64,000 nucleotides of DNA from Betaproteobacteria bacterium (GTDB taxonomy: Bacteria; Pseudomonadota; Gammaproteobacteria; Burkholderiales; Burkholderiaceae_C): NCBI GenBank assembly GCA_025356445.1, contig JANXSZ010000015.1, positions 1-64,000 on the forward strand. The letters run 5' to 3'. Position 1 is the first letter of the stretch. Each line of letters begins with the position of its first letter. The translations under genes and the position numbers were made by a program. The notes beneath the pieces are model-generated. The model was not told the origin of the DNA, did no database searches, and was given only the letters and a program-made list of their open reading frames with translations. Shown here one piece after another: positions 3,764 through 48,434 of the stretch.

Positions 3764-4720
3764 TCACAAGTACAGTGCAGTTTTGGCCTCAGCCAGGCTT
3801 GCAGGGTCGTACAAAGCCAGCCCGGTGAGTTCAGCATCAATGCGCTTGCACATGCCTGCCAAAACCTTACCGGGGCCGCATTCCACCAAAGTCAACAAGC
3901 CACGGGCTTTCAAGGCTTGCACACATTCCACCCAGCGTACCGGACCAAAAGCTTGACGGTAAAGCGCATCGCGGATGCGGTCTGGATCGGTTTCGACCAG
4001 CACATCAATGTTGTTCACAACGGGAATCTGGGGTGCCAACAACGTGACGCTGAGCAACTTGTCGCGCAACTTGTCCGCAGCGGGGCTCATCAGCAGCGAA
4101 TGAAAGGGCGCAGACACCGGCAAAGGCAAGGCGCGTTTGGCACCCATGGCTTTAAGGTGTACGCAGGCTTTCTCAACCGCATCCTTGCTACCGGAAATCA
4201 CCGTTTGTGCGGGGTCATTGAAATTGGCTGCAACAACAGATTCAACTGAGTTTAGGCCAAAGGCACTTGTCACTTCAGCACAACCCGCTATCACTTTTGA
4301 AGCATCCAACCCCAAAATAGCTGCCATAGCACCCGTGCCTACGGGCACAGCGTCTTGCATGGCCGCAGCACGAAAGCGCACCAGCGGCACGGCGTCGGCC
4401 AGCGTCAGCACGCCAGACGCCACCAGCGCAGAGTATTCACCCAGGGAATGACCCGCAACAGCAGACGGGGCCAGACCTGTTTCCGCCATCCACACCCGGT
4501 AAGCGGCTACAGCGGCCACCAACATCACGGGCTGGGTATTGGTGGTCAGTGCCAGGGCTTCTTTAGGGCCTTCATGCACCAGTTTCGCGAGGTCTTCGCC
4601 CAAAGCCTGTGAGGCCTCGGCCAGGGTCTGCGCCACAACAGGGTGATCACCCCAGGCGTCCAGCATCCCAACGGACTGCGAGCCTTGGCCCGGAAAAATA
4701 AAAGCAAACGGTGTTGACAT
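3764..4720 (-). CDS. fabD: Malonyl-CoA:ACP transacylase
   Basis: A 318-residue acyltransferase that makes malonyl-ACP. The N-terminal FIFPGQGSQSVGM, the nucleophile elbow GHSLGEYSAL (catalytic Ser) and PVSAPFHS with its catalytic His are all seen. The ATG at 4720 is chosen because the protein then starts MSTPFAFIFPGQG, the standard FabD opening. The frame continues 11 codons upstream without a better start. The stop overlaps the alternative GTG of fabG. It lies downstream of fabH in the same operon. Confidence 0.97.
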   Translation of the reverse strand: MSTPFAFIFPGQGSQSVGMLDAWGDHPVVAQTLAEASQALGEDLAKLVHEGPKEALALTTNTQPVMLVAAVAAYRVWMAETGLAPSAVAGHSLGEYSALVASGVLTLADAVPLVRFRAAAMQDAVPVGTGAMAAILGLDASKVIAGCAEVTSAFGLNSVESVVAANFNDPAQTVISGSKDAVEKACVHLKAMGAKRALPLPVSAPFHSLLMSPAADKLRDKLLSVTLLAPQIPVVNNIDVLVETDPDRIRDALYRQAFGPVRWVECVQALKARGLLTLVECGPGKVLAGMCKRIDAELTGLALYDPASLAEAKTALYL

Positions 4721-4788: not shown

Positions 4789-5778
4789 TCAATAGTTCAG
4801 CAGTACCGCACCCCAGGTGAAACCGCCGCCCACGCCTTCCAGCATCAGTGTGTCACCCGCCTTGATGCGACCACCGCGCACAGCGTGATCCAGCGCCAGC
4901 GGAATGGACGCCGCTGACGTGTTGCCATGCTGGTCAACCGTGACGATGACTTTGTCAAGCGGCAGCTTCAACCGCTTGGCTGTGCTTTGCATGATGCGGA
5001 TGTTGGCTTGGTGGGGAATCAGCCAATCAATGTCCGCCGTGGTTTTGCCTGCCTTCTCCAGCGTGGTGCGGGCAGCATCTTCCAAAACACCCACAGCCAG
5101 CTTGAATACGGCTTGACCGTCCATCGTGAGCAGAGGACTGCCCAGCACCTTGCCGCCGGACACTGTTCCAGGGACGCACAAAATGCCCACGTGTTTGCCA
5201 TCGGCGTGCAAATCGCTGGCCAGAATGCCGGGGCCGCTGCCATCGTGTTCGCAGGCTTCGAGCACCACGGCACCCGCGCCGTCACCGAACAGCACACAGG
5301 TGGTGCGATCGGTGAAATCGAGAATCCGGGAGAACACTTCTGCACCAATCACCAGGGCTTTGGTCGCCGCACCGGTTTGAATCATGGCATCGGCCACTAC
5401 CAGTGCATACACAAAACCGCTGCACACAGCTTGAACATCAAATGCAGCGCCCCCCGGGGCTCCGAGTTTGTGCTGCAAGATGCACGCGGCAGACGGGAAC
5501 ACCATATCGGGCGTGGACGTAGCGACGATGATGAGATCAATATCAGTGGGAAGCAAGCCCGCAGCTTCTAAAGCGCGCTTGGCAGCTTCCAAGCCTAAAT
5601 CGCTACAGCAAACGTCGGGAGCCGCAAAGTGACGGGCACGGATGCCCGTGCGCTCCACGATCCAGTCATCGCTCGTCTCGACGCCTTGGGTCGCCAGTTC
5701 GGCGGCAAGATCAGCATTGGTAAGACGGCGGGGCGGCAGATAACTGCCAGTACCAGTGATGCGGGAATAACGTCTCAT
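4789..5778 (-). CDS. fabH: Beta-ketoacyl-ACP synthase III
   Basis: A 329-residue initiator condensing enzyme that joins an acyl-CoA primer (typically acetyl-CoA) with malonyl-ACP. The catalytic Cys is in DVQAVCSGF, the His in [11 protein letters not shown] and the Asn in [11 protein letters not shown], which is the FabH Cys-His-Asn triad. The opening [17 protein letters not shown] is typical. It lies between plsX and fabD, the standard order in proteobacteria. Confidence 0.97.
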
Positions 5779-43153: not shown

Positions 43154-44262
43154 TCACCACTTGCGCCCCCGGCTGCCCCGCACCCCCAGCAGCCCCATCA
43201 AGCCCACCAGCAACAGCAAGCTCCACTCGCTCAACGTGGGTACGTTCGTCACACCCCCGGCACCAATGGGGCCGACAGGCACGCCGGGGCCACCGGGGTC
43301 GGCGATGAAACCGGCCCGTGCATCACTGTCACCCGCGCCGCCATCGGTGATGCTGAACGTGATCTGGTTGCCACTGATGGTGGCCGCAAACACATACCAG
43401 TGCGGCGTGGCATTGCCCGGCTCGCTACCGTATTTGTAGTACTGCGTGCCCGCTGGCAGGGCTTGCGGGTAGGTCAGCGTGAAGTTCAGGGTGCTGGCCG
43501 CACCGCAATCCGTGGTGGTAAAGGCAAACACGCCGTGCGGCATCGTCACGCCCGCAGGTGGGCTGGCAGGGGCGGCCTGAAACTGCGACGTGGCGTAGGC
43601 ACAACCCGCACCACCCCCCGTGAAGCTGGCCGTCTCGCTGCCTGTGCTGGTGGCCGTGGCGGCGGTATAGCTCTTGGACGAAGCCAGGGAATCAAAAGGG
43701 GCAAAAGACTGTCCGCTTCGCACGAGGCGAACATAGAAGGAATACGTCTTGTTGTCGGCGTAGGAGTAGCCGCTGACGAAGTTGACGAACCACGCGCTAC
43801 TCGGGAAAGGCGCATAAGTAGTGGATGACCAGAATGCATCCGAAGGCGTGGCAGGAAAGGCCGTGCTGTCGATGGCGGGGCTGTTGGTGGCGAGATTGAC
43901 CAGCGATTCCAGCTCGTTCTTGTTGGGCACGCGCCAATCGTTAAAGCCCTTGTAGCTGATGGCGTTGGCCGCTGTGGCTCTGGTCAGTGCATTGGCCCAC
44001 GTGCCGTAAAACGCGGTGCCTGTGGCACAGGTGCTGCCACCAAGGCCATAGGCGCATTGGTCCCAGACCAGAGGGTGGTGCTGTCGGTCACGGTGCCATT
44101 GCCTGCATTGACGCTGAGTGCCGCCCCCGCAGGCAGAGGCAGAGTCAATCCGAGACTGAAAACCAAGGCGGCAGTAGCAGCAAGGCGTTGACCGTGGTGG
44201 GTAGGCAAGGGCAGGGGAATAGGCTGAGGAATAGGCAGGGGCAGGGGAACAGAGGGCTTCAT
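43154..44262 (-). pseudogene. DGR target protein 1: DUF1566 variable domain with IPTL-CTERM anchor, interrupted by a frameshift
   Basis: The ATG at 44262 opens a signal peptide (RLAATAALVFSLGLTLPLPAGAA) and ALSVNAGNGTVTDSTT. At about 44073 the frame must shift by one base to continue LVWDQCAYGLGGSTC and the DUF1566 domain (NDWRVPNKNELESLV, FWSSTTYAPFPSSAWFVNF). The variable repeat VR1 encodes the end of that domain (residues about 150-184 of 369). A choice-of-anchor-like beta domain follows, then the sorting tail VPTLSEWSLLLLVGLMGLLG with a basic RGSRGRK end (IPTL-CTERM). Restored, it would be an exported surface-displayed C-lectin-like protein. It starts 3 bases after the reverse transcriptase stop. 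The missing base may be real or a sequencing error. Confidence 0.85.
43712..43813 (-). repeat. DGR variable repeat VR1 (102 bp)
   Basis: This segment aligns without gaps to the template repeat at 45857-45958. There are 14 mismatches, and every one falls on an adenine of the template (sense strand); no difference occurs at any of the other 70 positions. The last 24 bases (TATGTTCGCC to GAAGCGGA in sense) are identical and form the initiation-of-homology end. Translated, the template's Asn-rich PNPSNAWIVNFNN becomes PFPSSAWFVNFVS. Confidence 0.97.
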
Positions 44263-44265
44263 GGC

Positions 44266-45879
44266 TCAGGCTTTCGAAGGTGGGGGCGTGAAGAGAAAAG
44301 ACGGGCGAGAGAGGGAATTCACAGCGGAGGCTGAAAACCACACCGCTGTCAGCGTGCGTTGTTTAAAGCCGGTTTTAAAGTGCCCGGTTTGGCTGACCAC
44401 TTGGTGGGCCATACCGCGCAACTTGAGGCACTGGCGCAGCAGCGGCAAAGCGGCCAAGGGCCACTCGGTACACGGCCCCAGGCTGGGGCGCTGCACCGTG
44501 CGGCCTTTGGGCAAACCCACTGGGCAAGGCCCTGCGAGCATCCAGTTTTTACCCACCTGCATCAAAATGCAGGTGCTGGGGTAGCGGGCGGCAAAGTAGG
44601 CATGCTGGTCAACCAAGTTGCTGACCTCACGGGGCGACCAGCGCACCGCCTGCAGGCGAGGGCTGTGCTTGGACAGGGCAAACAACTGCGCCAGCCACGG
44701 GTGCCGCGCCTGCGTGCGCTGCCACAGGCGTTGGCTGTCGGCATGGCGCAAATGGGCGGTGTAGCTGCTGAGCTGAGCACGCAGGGCTTCCCGGGCGACT
44801 GGGGGCAACTCAATGGCATGGCCGCGCACATGCAGTCGCTCAAAGCCGCGCAAGCAAGTTTGCAGGCGTTTAACGACACGACGGCGGGCCAGGCGGTAAA
44901 AAGGCCGTGTGACGTAGCCTAAAAAATCAGTGCCTTGCTGCAAAGCATGCGGCTCAGCCAGCGCTTTGAGCCGCAGCCCCAGCCGCTCAGCCAAAAAAGC
45001 CACGATCTGCCCACGCCACACCTGCAGTTGCGCCGGGTCGGTGTGCAGCAGCACAAAATCATCCACATAGCGCACGTACCAGCGGGCTTTGAGCTGGTGT
45101 TTGACGAACTGGTCCAGCTCGTTCAGGTAGACGTTGGCAAAAAACTGGCTGGTCAGGTTACCAATGGGCAGGCCCACGCCCGCCCCTTGGGCACCCAGGC
45201 GCTTGTGAGGCGGCACCTGCTCAAAAATACGGGCGCTGCCCCGGCGACGCACGCCCACGGTAGGGTCCACCGTCAGCAGGGCGCGGCAATGGGTTTGCAG
45301 GGCAGCAGCCTCGTCGCTCGCCAGCTTGCCGCCCCGAACAGCACGGCTCAGGCGGTGTTGCAGCAGGCGAAACAAAGTGGGGCGGTGGATGCTGTTGAAG
45401 AAGTTGGCAATGTCGAGTTGCAGCGCATAAGCCGTCTGTGTACCGCCCGCGCTGGCTTGGCGCATGAAGCCTTGCAGGCGGTCTACAGCAGCGTGGGTGC
45501 CTTTGTTCAAGCGGTTGGCATACGAATCGTGGACGAACACCGGCTCGTAAAGGCGTGCCAAGCGCTCTACCAGCACATGGTGAACCACCCGGTCTGCAAA
45601 GGGTGCGGCGTGGATTTCGCGCAGCTTGGGGCGCGACACCACAAAGGAATAGGTGCGGGAGGGGCGCCAGCTTCTGCTGGCTAAAGCGTCTCGGCTGTGA
45701 ACCAGCTTGTTGAGCAAACTGGCCTCGTAGGCCTGGGTGTCACGGGACGATCGTTTACCTTTGCGGCAGGCCCGGTAGGCCCGCCACAGGGCGTGCAGAC
45801 CAAAGGGGGGCACTTGTGGTACGCCCTGGCCTGCGGGTTTGCCCGTTCGTTCACGCTCCGCTTCGCACGAGGCGAACAT
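44266..45879 (-). CDS. DGR reverse transcriptase
   Basis: Up to 537 residues. RT motifs: LQLDIANFFNSI (catalytic Asp156), the DGR-type GLPIGNLTSQFFANVYLNELD at 236-255, the catalytic YVRYVDDFVLL (Asp273, Asp274) and TDFLGYV (about 317). The IGNLTSQ block and neighbouring VRs/Avd place it firmly among DGR enzymes, which copy TR RNA with adenine errors and drive retrohoming into VR. The start is uncertain: ATG 45879 lies inside the TR, and GTG 45813 is an alternative giving VPPFGLHALWRAYR. A tail beyond residue 405 (DQHAYFAARYPSTCILMQVGKNW) resembles the opening of MutS domain I. The frame stays open upstream to 46185 but without family resemblance. Its stop is 3 bases before target gene 1. Confidence 0.95.
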   Translation of the reverse strand: MFASCEAERERTGKPAGQGVPQVPPFGLHALWRAYRACRKGKRSSRDTQAYEASLLNKLVHSRDALASRSWRPSRTYSFVVSRPKLREIHAAPFADRVVHHVLVERLARLYEPVFVHDSYANRLNKGTHAAVDRLQGFMRQASAGGTQTAYALQLDIANFFNSIHRPTLFRLLQHRLSRAVRGGKLASDEAAALQTHCRALLTVDPTVGVRRRGSARIFEQVPPHKRLGAQGAGVGLPIGNLTSQFFANVYLNELDQFVKHQLKARWYVRYVDDFVLLHTDPAQLQVWRGQIVAFLAERLGLRLKALAEPHALQQGTDFLGYVTRPFYRLARRRVVKRLQTCLRGFERLHVRGHAIELPPVAREALRAQLSSYTAHLRHADSQRLWQRTQARHPWLAQLFALSKHSPRLQAVRWSPREVSNLVDQHAYFAARYPSTCILMQVGKNWMLAGPCPVGLPKGRTVQRPSLGPCTEWPLAALPLLRQCLKLRGMAHQVVSQTGHFKTGFKQRTLTAVWFSASAVNSLSRPSFLFTPPPSKA

Positions 45880-45958
45880 AGTTGGAATTCGTCTTGTTGT
45901 TGGCGTTGGTGTTGCCGTTGTTGAAGTTGACGATCCACGCGTTACTCGGGTTAGGCGC
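45857..45958 (-). repeat. DGR template repeat TR (102 bp)
   Basis: This sequence is the invariant template for VR1 and VR2. It contains 32 adenines on the sense strand, mostly as AAC codons; its translation has 11 Asn in 25 residues (WIVNFNNGNTNANNK). AAC codons cannot mutate at A to a stop, a hallmark of DGR templates. It lies between avd and the reverse transcriptase gene. Its downstream flank (sense GCGTGAACG) differs from that of both VRs (CAGT), which may distinguish TR from VR as in IMH*/IMH. The possible RT start codon lies within it. Confidence 0.96.
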
Positions 45959-46181
45959 TTGGGCAGGGGGTGCCCGCTGGCGTTTGCCCCACCCTTCGGC
46001 CAATCCGAATCATCGCTCTGGCGCTTCGTGCCACGGGCAAGCCTTGCAGGCTTGTCCGCTGGCTGCACACCACCCATCCTTTCAGTAGGGTGGCGCACCT
46101 CCTCATGCCCCTTCGCCACGTTGGGCCTGGGCCCTGTGGGTGGTGGGCGGCCAGGGCGCACAGTGAACTGCGGCACGCTTC
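45959..46181 (-). ncRNA. Spacer between avd and TR, probable 5' part of the TR RNA
   Basis: 223 bases without a convincing gene. Characterised DGRs make an RNA covering TR and its flanks that the reverse transcriptase and Avd bind, so this stretch probably belongs to that RNA. It is GC-rich, and the part next to avd (46185-46300, reaching into the avd end) looks like the short dispersed repeats common in Comamonadaceae genomes. I saw no clear promoter. The boundaries are inferred. Confidence 0.4.
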
Positions 46182-46640
46182 TCATCTGTCAGGCCCCCAC
46201 GCTCCACCGCTTCGCGGGTCGCTACCCCCTGAGGGGACTGCGGCCTCGCTTGGCGCGGTCCAGCGCATCGGCCCAATGGGGTGGAATTCAGGCCGCACCC
46301 GACGCCGCCACCCCCCGCTCTGTTTGCCGAGGTTGACGGTGAGTTCCGTCGCCCCAGCGAATTCGTTGAAATTAGAAAAAGCTTTGGTCTCTTGGGCCAA
46401 AGTCAACAAGGTTTTCATCTCTTCCACGGCCAGCACCAGTTCGTCCAGCGCTGACCAGCGCGCTTCGCTCTGGGCATTGTTGGCACGCGCCACCAAGCGG
46501 CACAGGCGTTGGGCCAGGTGCCGCAGCTCGGTGCCCAAGGTGTATTTGTGGTAGCGCGGGAAGCGGCGCACGGCGTTTTCCAGGTGAACAGCCAAGTCCA
46601 GGGCGGCTTTCCAGACAGGCAAGTGGCGGTAATGGGCCAT
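46182..46640 (-). CDS. avd: Avd-type DGR accessory protein (four-helix bundle)
   Basis: A 152-residue basic protein starting MAHYRHLPVWKAALDLAVHLE. Helical segments follow: YTLGTELRHLAQRLCRLVARANNA, ALDELVLAVEEMKTLLTLAQE and FNEFAGATELTVNLGKQSGGW. This is the S23/bAvd four-helix-bundle pattern. Avd forms a pentamer that binds the reverse transcriptase and TR RNA and is required for mutagenic cDNA synthesis in the Bordetella phage DGR. Avd proteins are usually 110-130 residues; here the last ~30 residues (from about HPIGPMRW) look like read-through of a dispersed repeat. The first 22 bases of the gene also occur at 47247-47225, on the far side of an inserted toxin-antitoxin module. The present start has no good ribosome binding site. 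Confidence 0.9.
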   Translation of the reverse strand: MAHYRHLPVWKAALDLAVHLENAVRRFPRYHKYTLGTELRHLAQRLCRLVARANNAQSEARWSALDELVLAVEEMKTLLTLAQETKAFSNFNEFAGATELTVNLGKQSGGWRRRVRPEFHPIGPMRWTAPSEAAVPSGGSDPRSGGAWGPDR

Positions 46641-46641
46641 G
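46619..46641. repeat. 23-bp direct repeat, copy 1 (avd start, left edge of brnTA insertion)
   Basis: Identical over 23 bases to 47225-47247. It includes the avd ATG and its first six further codons in antisense (plus strand GCAAGTGGCGG...). Homology ends sharply on both sides. Confidence 0.95.
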
Positions 46642-46655
46642 GGATAAAATGTCAC

Positions 46656-46669
46656 ATTGTTAGTACAAT
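46656..46669. promoter_or_regulatory. Palindrome in the brnT promoter (probable autoregulatory operator)
   Basis: ATTGTTAGTACAAT has ATTGT/ACAAT arms around a TAGT centre and ends 7 bases before the brnT ATG. The BrnT-BrnA complex is known to repress its own promoter, so this is the likely binding site; it overlaps the expected -10/transcription start. Confidence 0.6.
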
Positions 46670-46676
46670 AAAAAGA

Positions 46677-46955
46677 ATGCAGATAAATTTCGACCCGGAT
46701 AAAAACTGGCGCAATATCCGCGACAGGGCGATTTCGTTCGCGAGCGCTGCTGATTTCGATTTTTCTACGGCCAAAATTTGGCAAGACACTCGTCGCCCCT
46801 ATCCTGAGATACGCTTTTTGGCGGTGGGTTACCTGGCGACACGCTTGCATGTGCTGTGTTTTTGCGACACACAACCCAGCATTCGCGTAATTAGTTTTCG
46901 TAAAGCCAACCCGCGTGAAGGAGCAAAGCATGGTTTCCCGCTTACCCGTGATTGA
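46677..46955 (+). CDS. brnT: BrnT-family toxin
   Basis: A 92-residue protein starting MQINFDPDKNWRNIRDRAISF. The BrnT family opening (FxWDxxKxxxNxxKHGISF) is recognisable, as are DFDFSTAKIWQDTRRPYPEIRFLAVGYL and the C-terminal RVISFRKANPRE. BrnT is a RelE-fold ribonuclease that inhibits translation. The ATG at 46677 gives the family opening; the longer upstream frame overlaps avd in antisense and is rejected. The end overlaps brnA by 26 bases. It is opposite in direction to the DGR genes and sits between avd and the VR2 target. Confidence 0.9.
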   Translation: MQINFDPDKNWRNIRDRAISFASAADFDFSTAKIWQDTRRPYPEIRFLAVGYLATRLHVLCFCDTQPSIRVISFRKANPREGAKHGFPLTRD

Positions 46956-47211
46956 TGAAGATGGTGAGGTGAGTGACCTCTCCGAAGTGGATGCAACACT
47001 GTTTCGTCCTGCGCATGAAGTGCTGCCCCTCAGCCTGCAAACCAGGCTGGGCATGACCCCACGGGGGCCGCAGAAAGCGCCGACCAAGGTGGCGACCACC
47101 ATTCGCTTGTCGCCGGACGTGGCGCAAGCATTTAAAGCCAGTGGACGCGGCTGGCAAACCCGCATTGACGCGGCATTGAAAGACTGGCTTCGCACGCACT
47201 CGCCCGTGTAG
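46930..47211 (+). CDS. brnA: BrnA-family antitoxin
   Basis: A 93-residue protein. The C-terminal DNA-binding part is visible in ATTIRLSPDVAQAFKASGRGWQTRIDAALKDWL, matching the BrnA motif LSPEVxxxFKAxGxGWQTRINxAL. The acidic N-terminus (DEDGEVSDLSEVD) probably neutralises BrnT. The ATG at 46930 has GAAGGAG at ideal spacing; a GTG at 46915 is in frame. The overlap with brnT means translational coupling. The gene ends 13 bases before the second 23-bp repeat. Confidence 0.92.
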   Translation: MVSRLPVIDEDGEVSDLSEVDATLFRPAHEVLPLSLQTRLGMTPRGPQKAPTKVATTIRLSPDVAQAFKASGRGWQTRIDAALKDWLRTHSPV

Positions 47212-47224
47212 ACCGTGCAGCGGC

Positions 47225-47247
47225 GCAAGTGGCGGTAATGGGCCATG
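47225..47247. repeat. 23-bp direct repeat, copy 2 (right edge of brnTA insertion)
   Basis: Second copy of the avd start region. In antisense it reads as an ATG plus MAHYRHL codons 35 bases after the VR2 gene stop, where avd should begin. The reading frame stays open from here through the brnTA region in antisense into avd, but that 354-codon frame is an accident of the insertion. Confidence 0.95.
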
Positions 47248-47281
47248 AGCGAAGATTCAGGAAGAGATCAAAAGGAGAAAA

Positions 47282-48016
47282 TTACTGTCCGCTTCGCACG
47301 AGGCGAACATAGAAGGAATCCGTCTTGTCGTAGGCGCCGGAGTTGCCGTCGTCGAAGTCGACGATCCACGCGACACTCGGGTCAGGCGCATAGGTATCGC
47401 TTGTCCAATACACATAGGCCTGGGTCGCAGGAAAATAGTTCACATCAATCCTGGGCTGCGCGTAGTCCGTCAATCCGTTGTGAACGAGGCTGAGTAACTC
47501 GCGGCGCGTGGGCAGCCGCCAGCCGCTGCTGAAACCACAGCGGCTGACCGCATTGGTGGCCGTGGGCAGCGTGCTTTGGGCATAGGTCGTCCAGTCGCCC
47601 TGCCCGGTTTGCAGTGACCACACGAGGTTGGTGACGTTGTCTTTGGTGCAGGCCCAGGCGCTGCTGCTGGCTGAGTTGGCCGAGGTGTCCCCGGTGGTGG
47701 CACTGGCACAGCTGCTGCCGTCCATGCAGATTTTGCTGAAATCAAAGCCTGCGGCACCGCCGCCGGTTTTGGTGGGGGTGGCCACGTCGCGGCCAAAGCG
47801 GGCGTCCTGGCGGGGCATGGCAGAGGCGTCGCCCGTGTTGGCGGTGGCGCAAGTGGCCAGCACATTGCTGCCGTTGTCGCACTGGGTCAGCCCGGTGTCG
47901 TTGAGCAAACCGGTGGGGCCTGCGGCGTGGGCATGGCCCAGTGCCCCGGCCAGCGCGAGGGCGCAAAGCGGTGCAACAAGGCGCGAAACAGCAGGGAAGC
48001 GAAAAAGTGCGGGCAT
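47282..48016 (-). CDS. DGR target protein 2: secreted DUF1566 variable protein
   Basis: A 244-residue protein. Signal peptide: MPALFRFPAVSRLVAPLCAL then ALAGALGHAHAAG. The mature part has DTGLTQCDNGSNVL, DARFGRDVA, CTKDNVTNLVWSLQTGQGDW and the DUF1566 (Lcl-type) core WRLPTRRELLSLVHNG and YWTSDTYAPDPSVAWIVDF. The last 34 residues are VR2, so the variable residues are at the extreme C-terminus, the typical DGR layout on a C-lectin-like/FGE fold. No anchor is seen, so it may be secreted or held by disulfides. The ATG at 48016 is the one giving a signal peptide; the frame continues upstream without support. Confidence 0.9.
   Translation of the reverse strand: MPALFRFPAVSRLVAPLCALALAGALGHAHAAGPTGLLNDTGLTQCDNGSNVLATCATANTGDASAMPRQDARFGRDVATPTKTGGGAAGFDFSKICMDGSSCASATTGDTSANSASSSAWACTKDNVTNLVWSLQTGQGDWTTYAQSTLPTATNAVSRCGFSSGWRLPTRRELLSLVHNGLTDYAQPRIDVNYFPATQAYVYWTSDTYAPDPSVAWIVDFDDGNSGAYDKTDSFYVRLVRSGQ
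47288..47389 (-). repeat. DGR variable repeat VR2 (102 bp)
   Basis: Gap-free alignment to the TR at 45857-45958 with 14 mismatches, all at template adenines. The pattern differs from VR1: across the two VRs, 19 distinct adenines of 32 are altered at least once. The encoded peptide reads PDPSVAWIVDFDDGNSGAYD. The gene's stop codon follows two codons after the conserved LVRSG. Confidence 0.97.
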
Positions 48017-48210
48017 GGCAGGAGGCTCCAAAAGAGAAAAACCGCCCGCCGCTAAAAAGCGAGGGGCGGCATGGCGACCGGGGACAGGGTGGAATAACAA
48101 TGCGGCGGCGGCGCACAGAGCGCCGAAAAGCGGGAACGGGAAAACTTGTGAGGGTGGCGTGTGCGGCTGCGTACCGCAGGCGAACACCCGTGCCGGGCAA
48201 CGGCTAGATG

Positions 48211-48275
48211 GCTTGGCTTGGCTTGGCTTGGCTTGGCTTGGCTTGGCTTGGCTTGGCTTGGCTTGGCTTGGCTTG
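48211..48275. repeat. Pentanucleotide tandem array, 13 x GCTTG (CAAGC on the minus strand)
   Basis: Thirteen perfect 5-bp units with no interruptions, followed by GCAAG. The array lies 195-259 bases upstream of the VR2 target start codon, in the presumed promoter or leader of the DGR cassette. Long perfect short-unit arrays change length by slippage. Confidence 0.97.
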
Positions 48276-48434
48276 GCAAGGATGATGCGGGGAAAATCAC
48301 GGAGCGATGCGTCAGTTGGGTCACATTATTTTGTCCTTGATCGTACGTTACTTTGGCGCTGCCGCTTGTGTTTGTGTTTGTGATTTATTTACATTCCAGA
48401 TGGCTCTGAGGCCGAGCACAAAACCAAACCCGCG

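Follow-up and report, generated by a model that had tools for sequence, protein, structure and literature searches.

Does the cassette in this stretch of DNA rewrite two genes from a single template, and what could decide whether the rewritten proteins are made? We addressed this question in the window, by which we mean the entire 64,000-nucleotide stretch, and in the genome from which it comes (3.95 Mb in 84 contigs, 99.8% complete). The features on which the analysis rests are collected in the table.

Table. Features of the cassette in window coordinates, and the leaders of related loci (L numbers).
Feature	Position	Strand	Details
VR2 target gene	43154-44262	-	signal peptide, Lcl_C/DUF1566 domain with internal VR2, choice-of-anchor U domain, IPTL-CTERM
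IPTL-CTERM sorting signal	43163-43243	-	only hit over cut-off in the genome
VR2	43712-43813	-	102 bp; 14 mismatches to TR, all at template A; internal in its gene
DGR reverse transcriptase (RT)	44266-45879	-	IGNLTSQ and YVDD; C-terminal MutS-domain-I-like module
MutS-domain-I-like module of RT	~44320-44688	-	predicted model and Foldseek
TR	45857-45958	-	102 bp; 32 sense adenines (32 T on the + strand)
avd	46182-46640	-	152 aa; PF22296 bAvd E 1.5e-10, above cut-off; PHROG Avd E 1e-20
brnT-brnA toxin-antitoxin pair	46619-47247	+	PF04365 and PF14384 above cut-off
BrnT	~46680-46955	+	within the brnTA insertion
BrnA	46915-47211	+	within the brnTA insertion
VR1 target gene	47282-48016	-	244 aa; signal peptide; Lcl_C/DUF1566 domain ending at VR1; PF07603 E 1e-25
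VR1 3' flank	47266-47287	-	CAGTAATTTTCTCCTTTTGAT; resembles the VR2 flank (43690-43711), missing at TR
VR1	47288-47389	-	102 bp; 14 mismatches to TR, all at template A
Intrinsic-terminator-like hairpin and T run	48041-48070	-	dG -21.2 kcal/mol; 24 nt before the VR1 gene ATG at 48016
Candidate leader ORF	48052-48324	-	90 aa; GTG start, AAGGA upstream; predicted
(GCCAA)13.8 repeat, coding strand	48209-48277	-	TRF; sole tandem array in the 64 kb window
L015 leader			~19.2 copies; hairpin -27.5
L017 leader			7 copies; hairpin -19.7
L097 leader			8.8 copies; hairpin -25.8
L022 leader			6.6 copies; hairpin -11.5
L037 leader			(GACA)6; hairpin -18.8

A preliminary description of the locus had placed a template repeat (TR) and two variable repeats (VR1 and VR2), each of 102 bp, and its coordinates and lengths turned out to be exact. 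It had also counted 14 differences from TR in each VR, all at sense adenines, which is borne out to the base: all 28 differences fall at the 32 template adenines among the 102 TR positions. The probability that both sets are confined to adenines by chance is about 6e-17. Nine variable sites are common to VR1 and VR2 and only four of these carry the same base; hence, the two repeats were mutated largely independently of each other. In a search of the whole genome we found exactly three copies of the repeat, namely TR, VR1 and VR2, and no additional VR elsewhere. The 25 bp at the 3' end are identical in TR and both VRs, and they are followed by a motif that is kept after both VRs and not at TR. 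In the relatives, a motif near T..TTTG.C.CTTTTGAT likewise lies downstream of both VRs and not of TR; it is coding at VR2 and noncoding at VR1. This post-VR motif may belong to the homing signal and is our candidate for the initiation of mutagenic homing (IMH) element.

The assignment of the reverse transcriptase to the DGR type, also made in that description, was checked by phylogeny. When group II RTs serve as outgroups, the protein clusters in the tree with the BPP-1 bRT and further DGR RTs, away from the group II intron RTs, and the IGNLTSQ-type motif is present in the RT alignment. Its nearest solved RT structure is 8ub7 (E 2e-34), whereas group II RTs match at about 1e-8, and the PHROG RT match has an E-value of 1e-95. 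The likely start codon of the RT (ATG 45879) sits within the constant 3' part of TR (45857-45879), and the same would hold for L016 and L017. The Avd-like protein is real by its Pfam and PHROG matches; it scores 38 bits against the NCBIfam DivGenRetAVD cut-off of 80. Together, the TR/VR signature, the RT and Avd confirm that the locus is a diversity-generating retroelement (DGR): it is a chromosomal DGR in which one template serves two secreted lectin-like proteins.

All cassette genes lie on the minus strand and are transcribed in the order VR1 gene, avd, TR, RT, VR2 gene. The order on the plus strand is thus VR2 gene, RT, TR, avd, VR1 gene; the order originally proposed (VR2 gene, avd, TR, RT, VR1 gene) had RT and avd interchanged. 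The idea that one template serves a target at each end of the cassette was right, and about 20 relatives likewise have avd-TR-RT flanked by a target on either side. Equally sound was the placement of both VRs in DUF1566-type secreted proteins, as Pfam finds an Lcl_C/DUF1566 domain in both targets; a genome search revealed no other DUF1566 genes. A prophage or plasmid origin has no support: the neighbours are housekeeping-like, the best plasmid or phage RT matches are below 45% identity, and a plasmid search gave no Avd match. From the list of open reading frames, examined by eye, we take the neighbouring genes to be a purine permease, a malic enzyme and an ABC transporter. Beyond the preliminary description, the locus holds a repeat/terminator leader, an internal VR with a putative exosortase anchor, a MutS-like RT domain, a brnTA insertion and a frame break.

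In its core the element resembles the DGR of Bordetella phage BPP-1 (brt-TR-avd-mtd), with which it shares RT, Avd, TR, VR, adenine-specific substitutions and an Avd gene adjoining TR. It differs from that system in being chromosomal, in having two targets with Lcl_C/DUF1566 domains instead of Mtd, and in its MutS-like RT extension and repeat/terminator leader. The use of one TR for several VRs is also known from the multi-VR DGRs with DUF1566 targets in the accessible text of PMC6642488 and PMC3521204, where DUF1566 is given as the commonest annotated DGR target domain and multiple VRs are reported in 28.6% of non-redundant DGRs (PMC6642488). A repeat-plus-terminator leader such as that of the window is not described in that text, and we found no DGR linked to simple repeats or attenuation in the open-licence papers searched.

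The relatives used for comparison were picked by RT alone and are not independent of each other. A scan for adenine-biased repeat pairs detected TR/VR pairs in most of them. Paenacidovorax caeni (L016) and Giesbergeria sp. (L017) have a 3.9-kb locus in common with 94% identity and an identical TR. Their VR1 repeats differ at 17 sites, 15 of which are template adenines, and their VR2 repeats at 21 sites, all of them template adenines. Since TR is identical and 36 of the 38 VR differences are at template adenines, this element family rewrites both targets. The expectation of VRs that vary at adenines next to a constant TR therefore holds in this pair at both targets. Two genomes of a cultured species, Cupriavidus pauculus (loci L064 and L069), form another natural activity pair: TR is the same in both, and their two VRs show 12 and 13 differences.

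The structure of the target proteins bears on what is being varied. The best PDB match to the model of the VR1 target is the C-terminal domain of Legionella Lcl (8q4e), although the model is of low confidence (mean pLDDT 60). Together with the Pfam Lcl_C domain of both targets, this match is consistent with the variable residues lying in a domain of the C-type lectin fold. Unlike that of Legionella Lcl, the domain in the window bears a DGR variable repeat. The VR2 gene begins with an ATG at 44262, 3 nt past the RT stop codon, and its VR is not at the gene end: about 185 codons follow, including a choice-of-anchor U domain and the IPTL-CTERM tail. This is a departure from the C-terminal VR that is typical, and near-universal, in Roux et al. 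2021 (PMC8144416).

The IPTL-CTERM tail scores 36.7 bits with TIGR04174 (cut-off 20.5), and the next best hit in the genome only 15 bits. The genome encodes one exosortase H (XrtH; TIGR04177 223 bits, cut-off 86) along with an XrtH_assoc membrane protein, and the VR2 protein is probably anchored or processed by it via this tail. DGR targets in L016 and L097 likewise end in IPTL-CTERM tails. Near L097, two such tails are found close to each other at a DGR locus (G226 C1:3256168-3257052). We found no report of a diversity-generating retroelement together with IPTL-CTERM or an exosortase in the open-licence papers searched. In the assembly, the VR2 gene changes frame between its signal peptide, read from ATG 44262, and its lectin domain, with the break at about 44060-44080, whereas in L015, L016 and L018 the two are in one frame. 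This break could reflect a mistake in assembly or sequencing, a switch or a pseudogene. As a result, the protein with the exosortase anchor may not be produced here.

Another feature concerns the RT itself. The predicted model of its last 140 residues (44266-44688) has a mean pLDDT of 81 and is good apart from the tail. The best 50 PDB matches found by Foldseek are MutS proteins throughout, all aligned via domain I, the mismatch-recognition domain; these matches are modest (E about 4e-3, identity 11-20%), and Pfam gives no hit for the module. The module is common to the close relatives L015-L027 and L048. The structural matches suggest, within the limits of such E-values, that the RT C-terminus has a MutS-domain-I-like fold. 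However, the Phe-X-Glu mismatch motif of MutS domain I is not kept, the module having NWM there (alignment A1, by eye). It is speculation on our part that the module might shield or steer mismatch handling.

Between the VR1 gene and avd the cassette is interrupted by a brnTA toxin-antitoxin pair on the opposite strand, inserted where avd has its first codons. Two direct copies of a 23-bp stretch from the avd start flank the pair (46619-46641 and 47225-47247), and this duplication keeps avd whole despite the insertion. As the same site is uninterrupted in L015, brnTA is a lineage-specific insertion. We considered BrnTA as a conserved DGR accessory and rejected it, because the pair is missing at that site in L015-L018; weaker BrnA matches occur at other places in L018 and L083. 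At nearly the same codons, avd of L018 is interrupted by a hairpin-rich REP-like stretch (~5150-5230).

Upstream of the VR1 gene lies a pentanucleotide repeat followed by a terminator-like hairpin. A run of at least five GCCAA units occurs once in the 3.95-Mb genome, which does away with the idea of a genome-wide habit of such repeats. The candidate leader ORF passes through the repeat and stops at a TAG within the hairpin; beyond the hairpin the VR1 target has its own Shine-Dalgarno sequence (SD), ATG and signal peptide, as in most relatives. A search upstream of the leader gave no match to a sigma-70 promoter. With only 24 nt between the hairpin and the ATG there is no room for a later promoter, and the hairpin therefore lies in the 5' UTR. 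Taken alone it is unexceptional (3 such hairpins found, 2.0 expected; z -0.2 in a second test), so the case for it rests on recurrence.

This recurrence was examined in a repeat survey of 97 chromosomal loci (0.93 Mb, 22 repeats). A repeat is present within 450 nt upstream of 12 of the 33 first targets, with 0.17 expected, and of 0 of the 29 second targets; 70 DGR loci on viral contigs (655 kb) contain one repeat in total. The units are unrelated (GCCAA, GCCGA, GACA, CAGC, CTAT and CCAA), and parsimony on the RT tree requires at least six state changes for the repeat. Two cases are weak, namely L098, which is one of the twelve and consists of a CGCCG low-complexity run, and L054, where the repeat is far upstream. 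The series of repeat, hairpin, SD and ATG is found in L015, L017, L097 and L022 and, with another unit, in the Nitrospirae locus L037. The copy number differs across species (13.8, 19.2 and 7-10 in this between-species comparison). In the window and these five loci the hairpin is 24-44 nt from the start codon. A hairpin 20-50 nt upstream is found at 12 of 823 long-ORF starts, and four of these twelve are leader loci.

The reading frames of the leader show a pattern as well. In each of the six hairpin loci, one frame ends 26-133 nt short of the hairpin and another stops no more than 6 nt from the hairpin, within it or beyond it; for any single locus this pattern is not very improbable. In five of the six, the remaining frame is the open one of the target itself. 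A leader start is apparent as GTG with AAGGA in the window and as ATG with an SD in L015 and L037; none is clear in L097.

A similar layout is known from the pil1/pil3 attenuator of Streptococcus gallolyticus (PMC3894217), in which a pentanucleotide repeat in a leader ORF is followed by a stem-loop terminator (-18.7 kcal/mol), a ribosome-binding site and the first surface-protein gene. The pil1 frames stop either early or at or in the hairpin, as do those of the window and its relatives. Isolates in which the leader stops at least 28 nt upstream of the hairpin have a mostly-low profile, and those in which it stops just before or within the hairpin express pili at a high level (PMC3894217). By this model the leader frame of the window is in the ON configuration and those of L015 and L037 are in the OFF configuration. 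That system belongs to another phylum, has another repeat unit, controls pili and involves no DGR; its mechanism was demonstrated with mutants, whereas here we infer leader translation, slippage and antitermination.

Hence, the explanation of the whole that we favor, and hold to be fairly probable, is a DGR that rewrites two targets combined with a repeat-driven attenuator leader. TR RNA would be copied by the RT with Avd, random bases would enter the cDNA opposite template adenines, and the mutated cDNA would replace VR1 and VR2 in the two secreted C-type-lectin-like proteins. For this part the adenine signature is seen directly, and retrohoming is attributed to the element as a member of the DGR family. 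The leader ORF would cross a slippage-prone pentanucleotide repeat into a terminator abutting the ribosome-binding site of the first target, and the gain or loss of a repeat unit would shift its frame. In one frame translation would stop early and the terminator would form (OFF); in the other two the ribosome would be brought to or through the hairpin (ON). The DGR would thus randomize the identity of the targets and phase variation would switch their expression, by analogy with pil1 and given the recurrent layout, which suggests self-mutating proteins that are switched on and off at random. In the window the switch may not reach the RT, because BrnTA separates the VR1 gene from avd-TR-RT. For a broader statement we see about even chances: that there is a family of two-target chromosomal DGRs in Proteobacteria, Desulfobacterota and Nitrospirota in which hypermutation sets binding and a slippage attenuator sets operon expression, with the second variable protein as the one substrate detected in this genome for a dedicated exosortase H.

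Two other readings of the leader have to be weighed against this. The locus could be a standard two-target DGR with a neutral repeat, a hairpin that terminates an upstream transcript and no switching, which we regard as unlikely. The low significance of the single hairpin is in its favor, as are L016, which has no repeat, and L018 and L083, which have the repeat and no clear terminator. It does not account for the excess of repeats in unrelated units before first targets only, nor for six loci with the same layout and a hairpin that, in the window, must belong to the 5' UTR. Similarly doubtful is a repeat that acts without attenuation, either as a promoter-spacing element or as a translational on/off switch of an N-terminally extended target. 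Such ordinary repeat control has a good example in L024 (Desulfobulbales; 4060-4145), where (CCAA)9 comes after a strong-SD ATG and before an out-of-frame lipoprotein signal in the classical layout of a contingency locus, and in L022 and L083 the target continues the frame of a leader ATG. Against it, the target in the window and most relatives has an SD, an ATG and a signal peptide of its own past the hairpin, a long N-terminal extension would disturb secretion, and promoter spacing leaves the hairpin unexplained.

Finally, the element could be decaying, with the VR2 gene a pseudogene, the cassette disrupted by brnTA and the targets no longer diversified. The differing frames of the VR2 gene and the insertion itself point in this direction. 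However, avd and RT are both intact and no catalytic motif is missing, the 23-bp duplication spares avd, and the frame break could have arisen in sequencing or assembly. Moreover, neither VR differs from TR at any position other than an adenine, which means that the last rewriting was recent. We therefore consider decay improbable, and return to a DGR that is combined with an attenuator leader.

In summary, the core of this DGR is ordinary for the field, and what is new and worth testing is the repeat/terminator leader with its recurrence in relatives, the internal VR with a presumed exosortase anchor and the MutS-like module of the RT. An internal VR followed by such an anchor contrasts with the near-universal C-terminal position (PMC8144416), and the anchor would be a route of surface display unlike that of the Legionella lipoprotein. 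The MutS-like module suggests a handle on the mismatches made by retrohoming. A repeat-driven switch would make DGR regulation open to testing, since repeat numbers and VR alleles could be scored together on single reads. If the switch is true, a clone could keep silent variants that are expressed in a minority of cells, which would bear on the purpose of cellular DGRs and on how costly mutagenesis is restrained.
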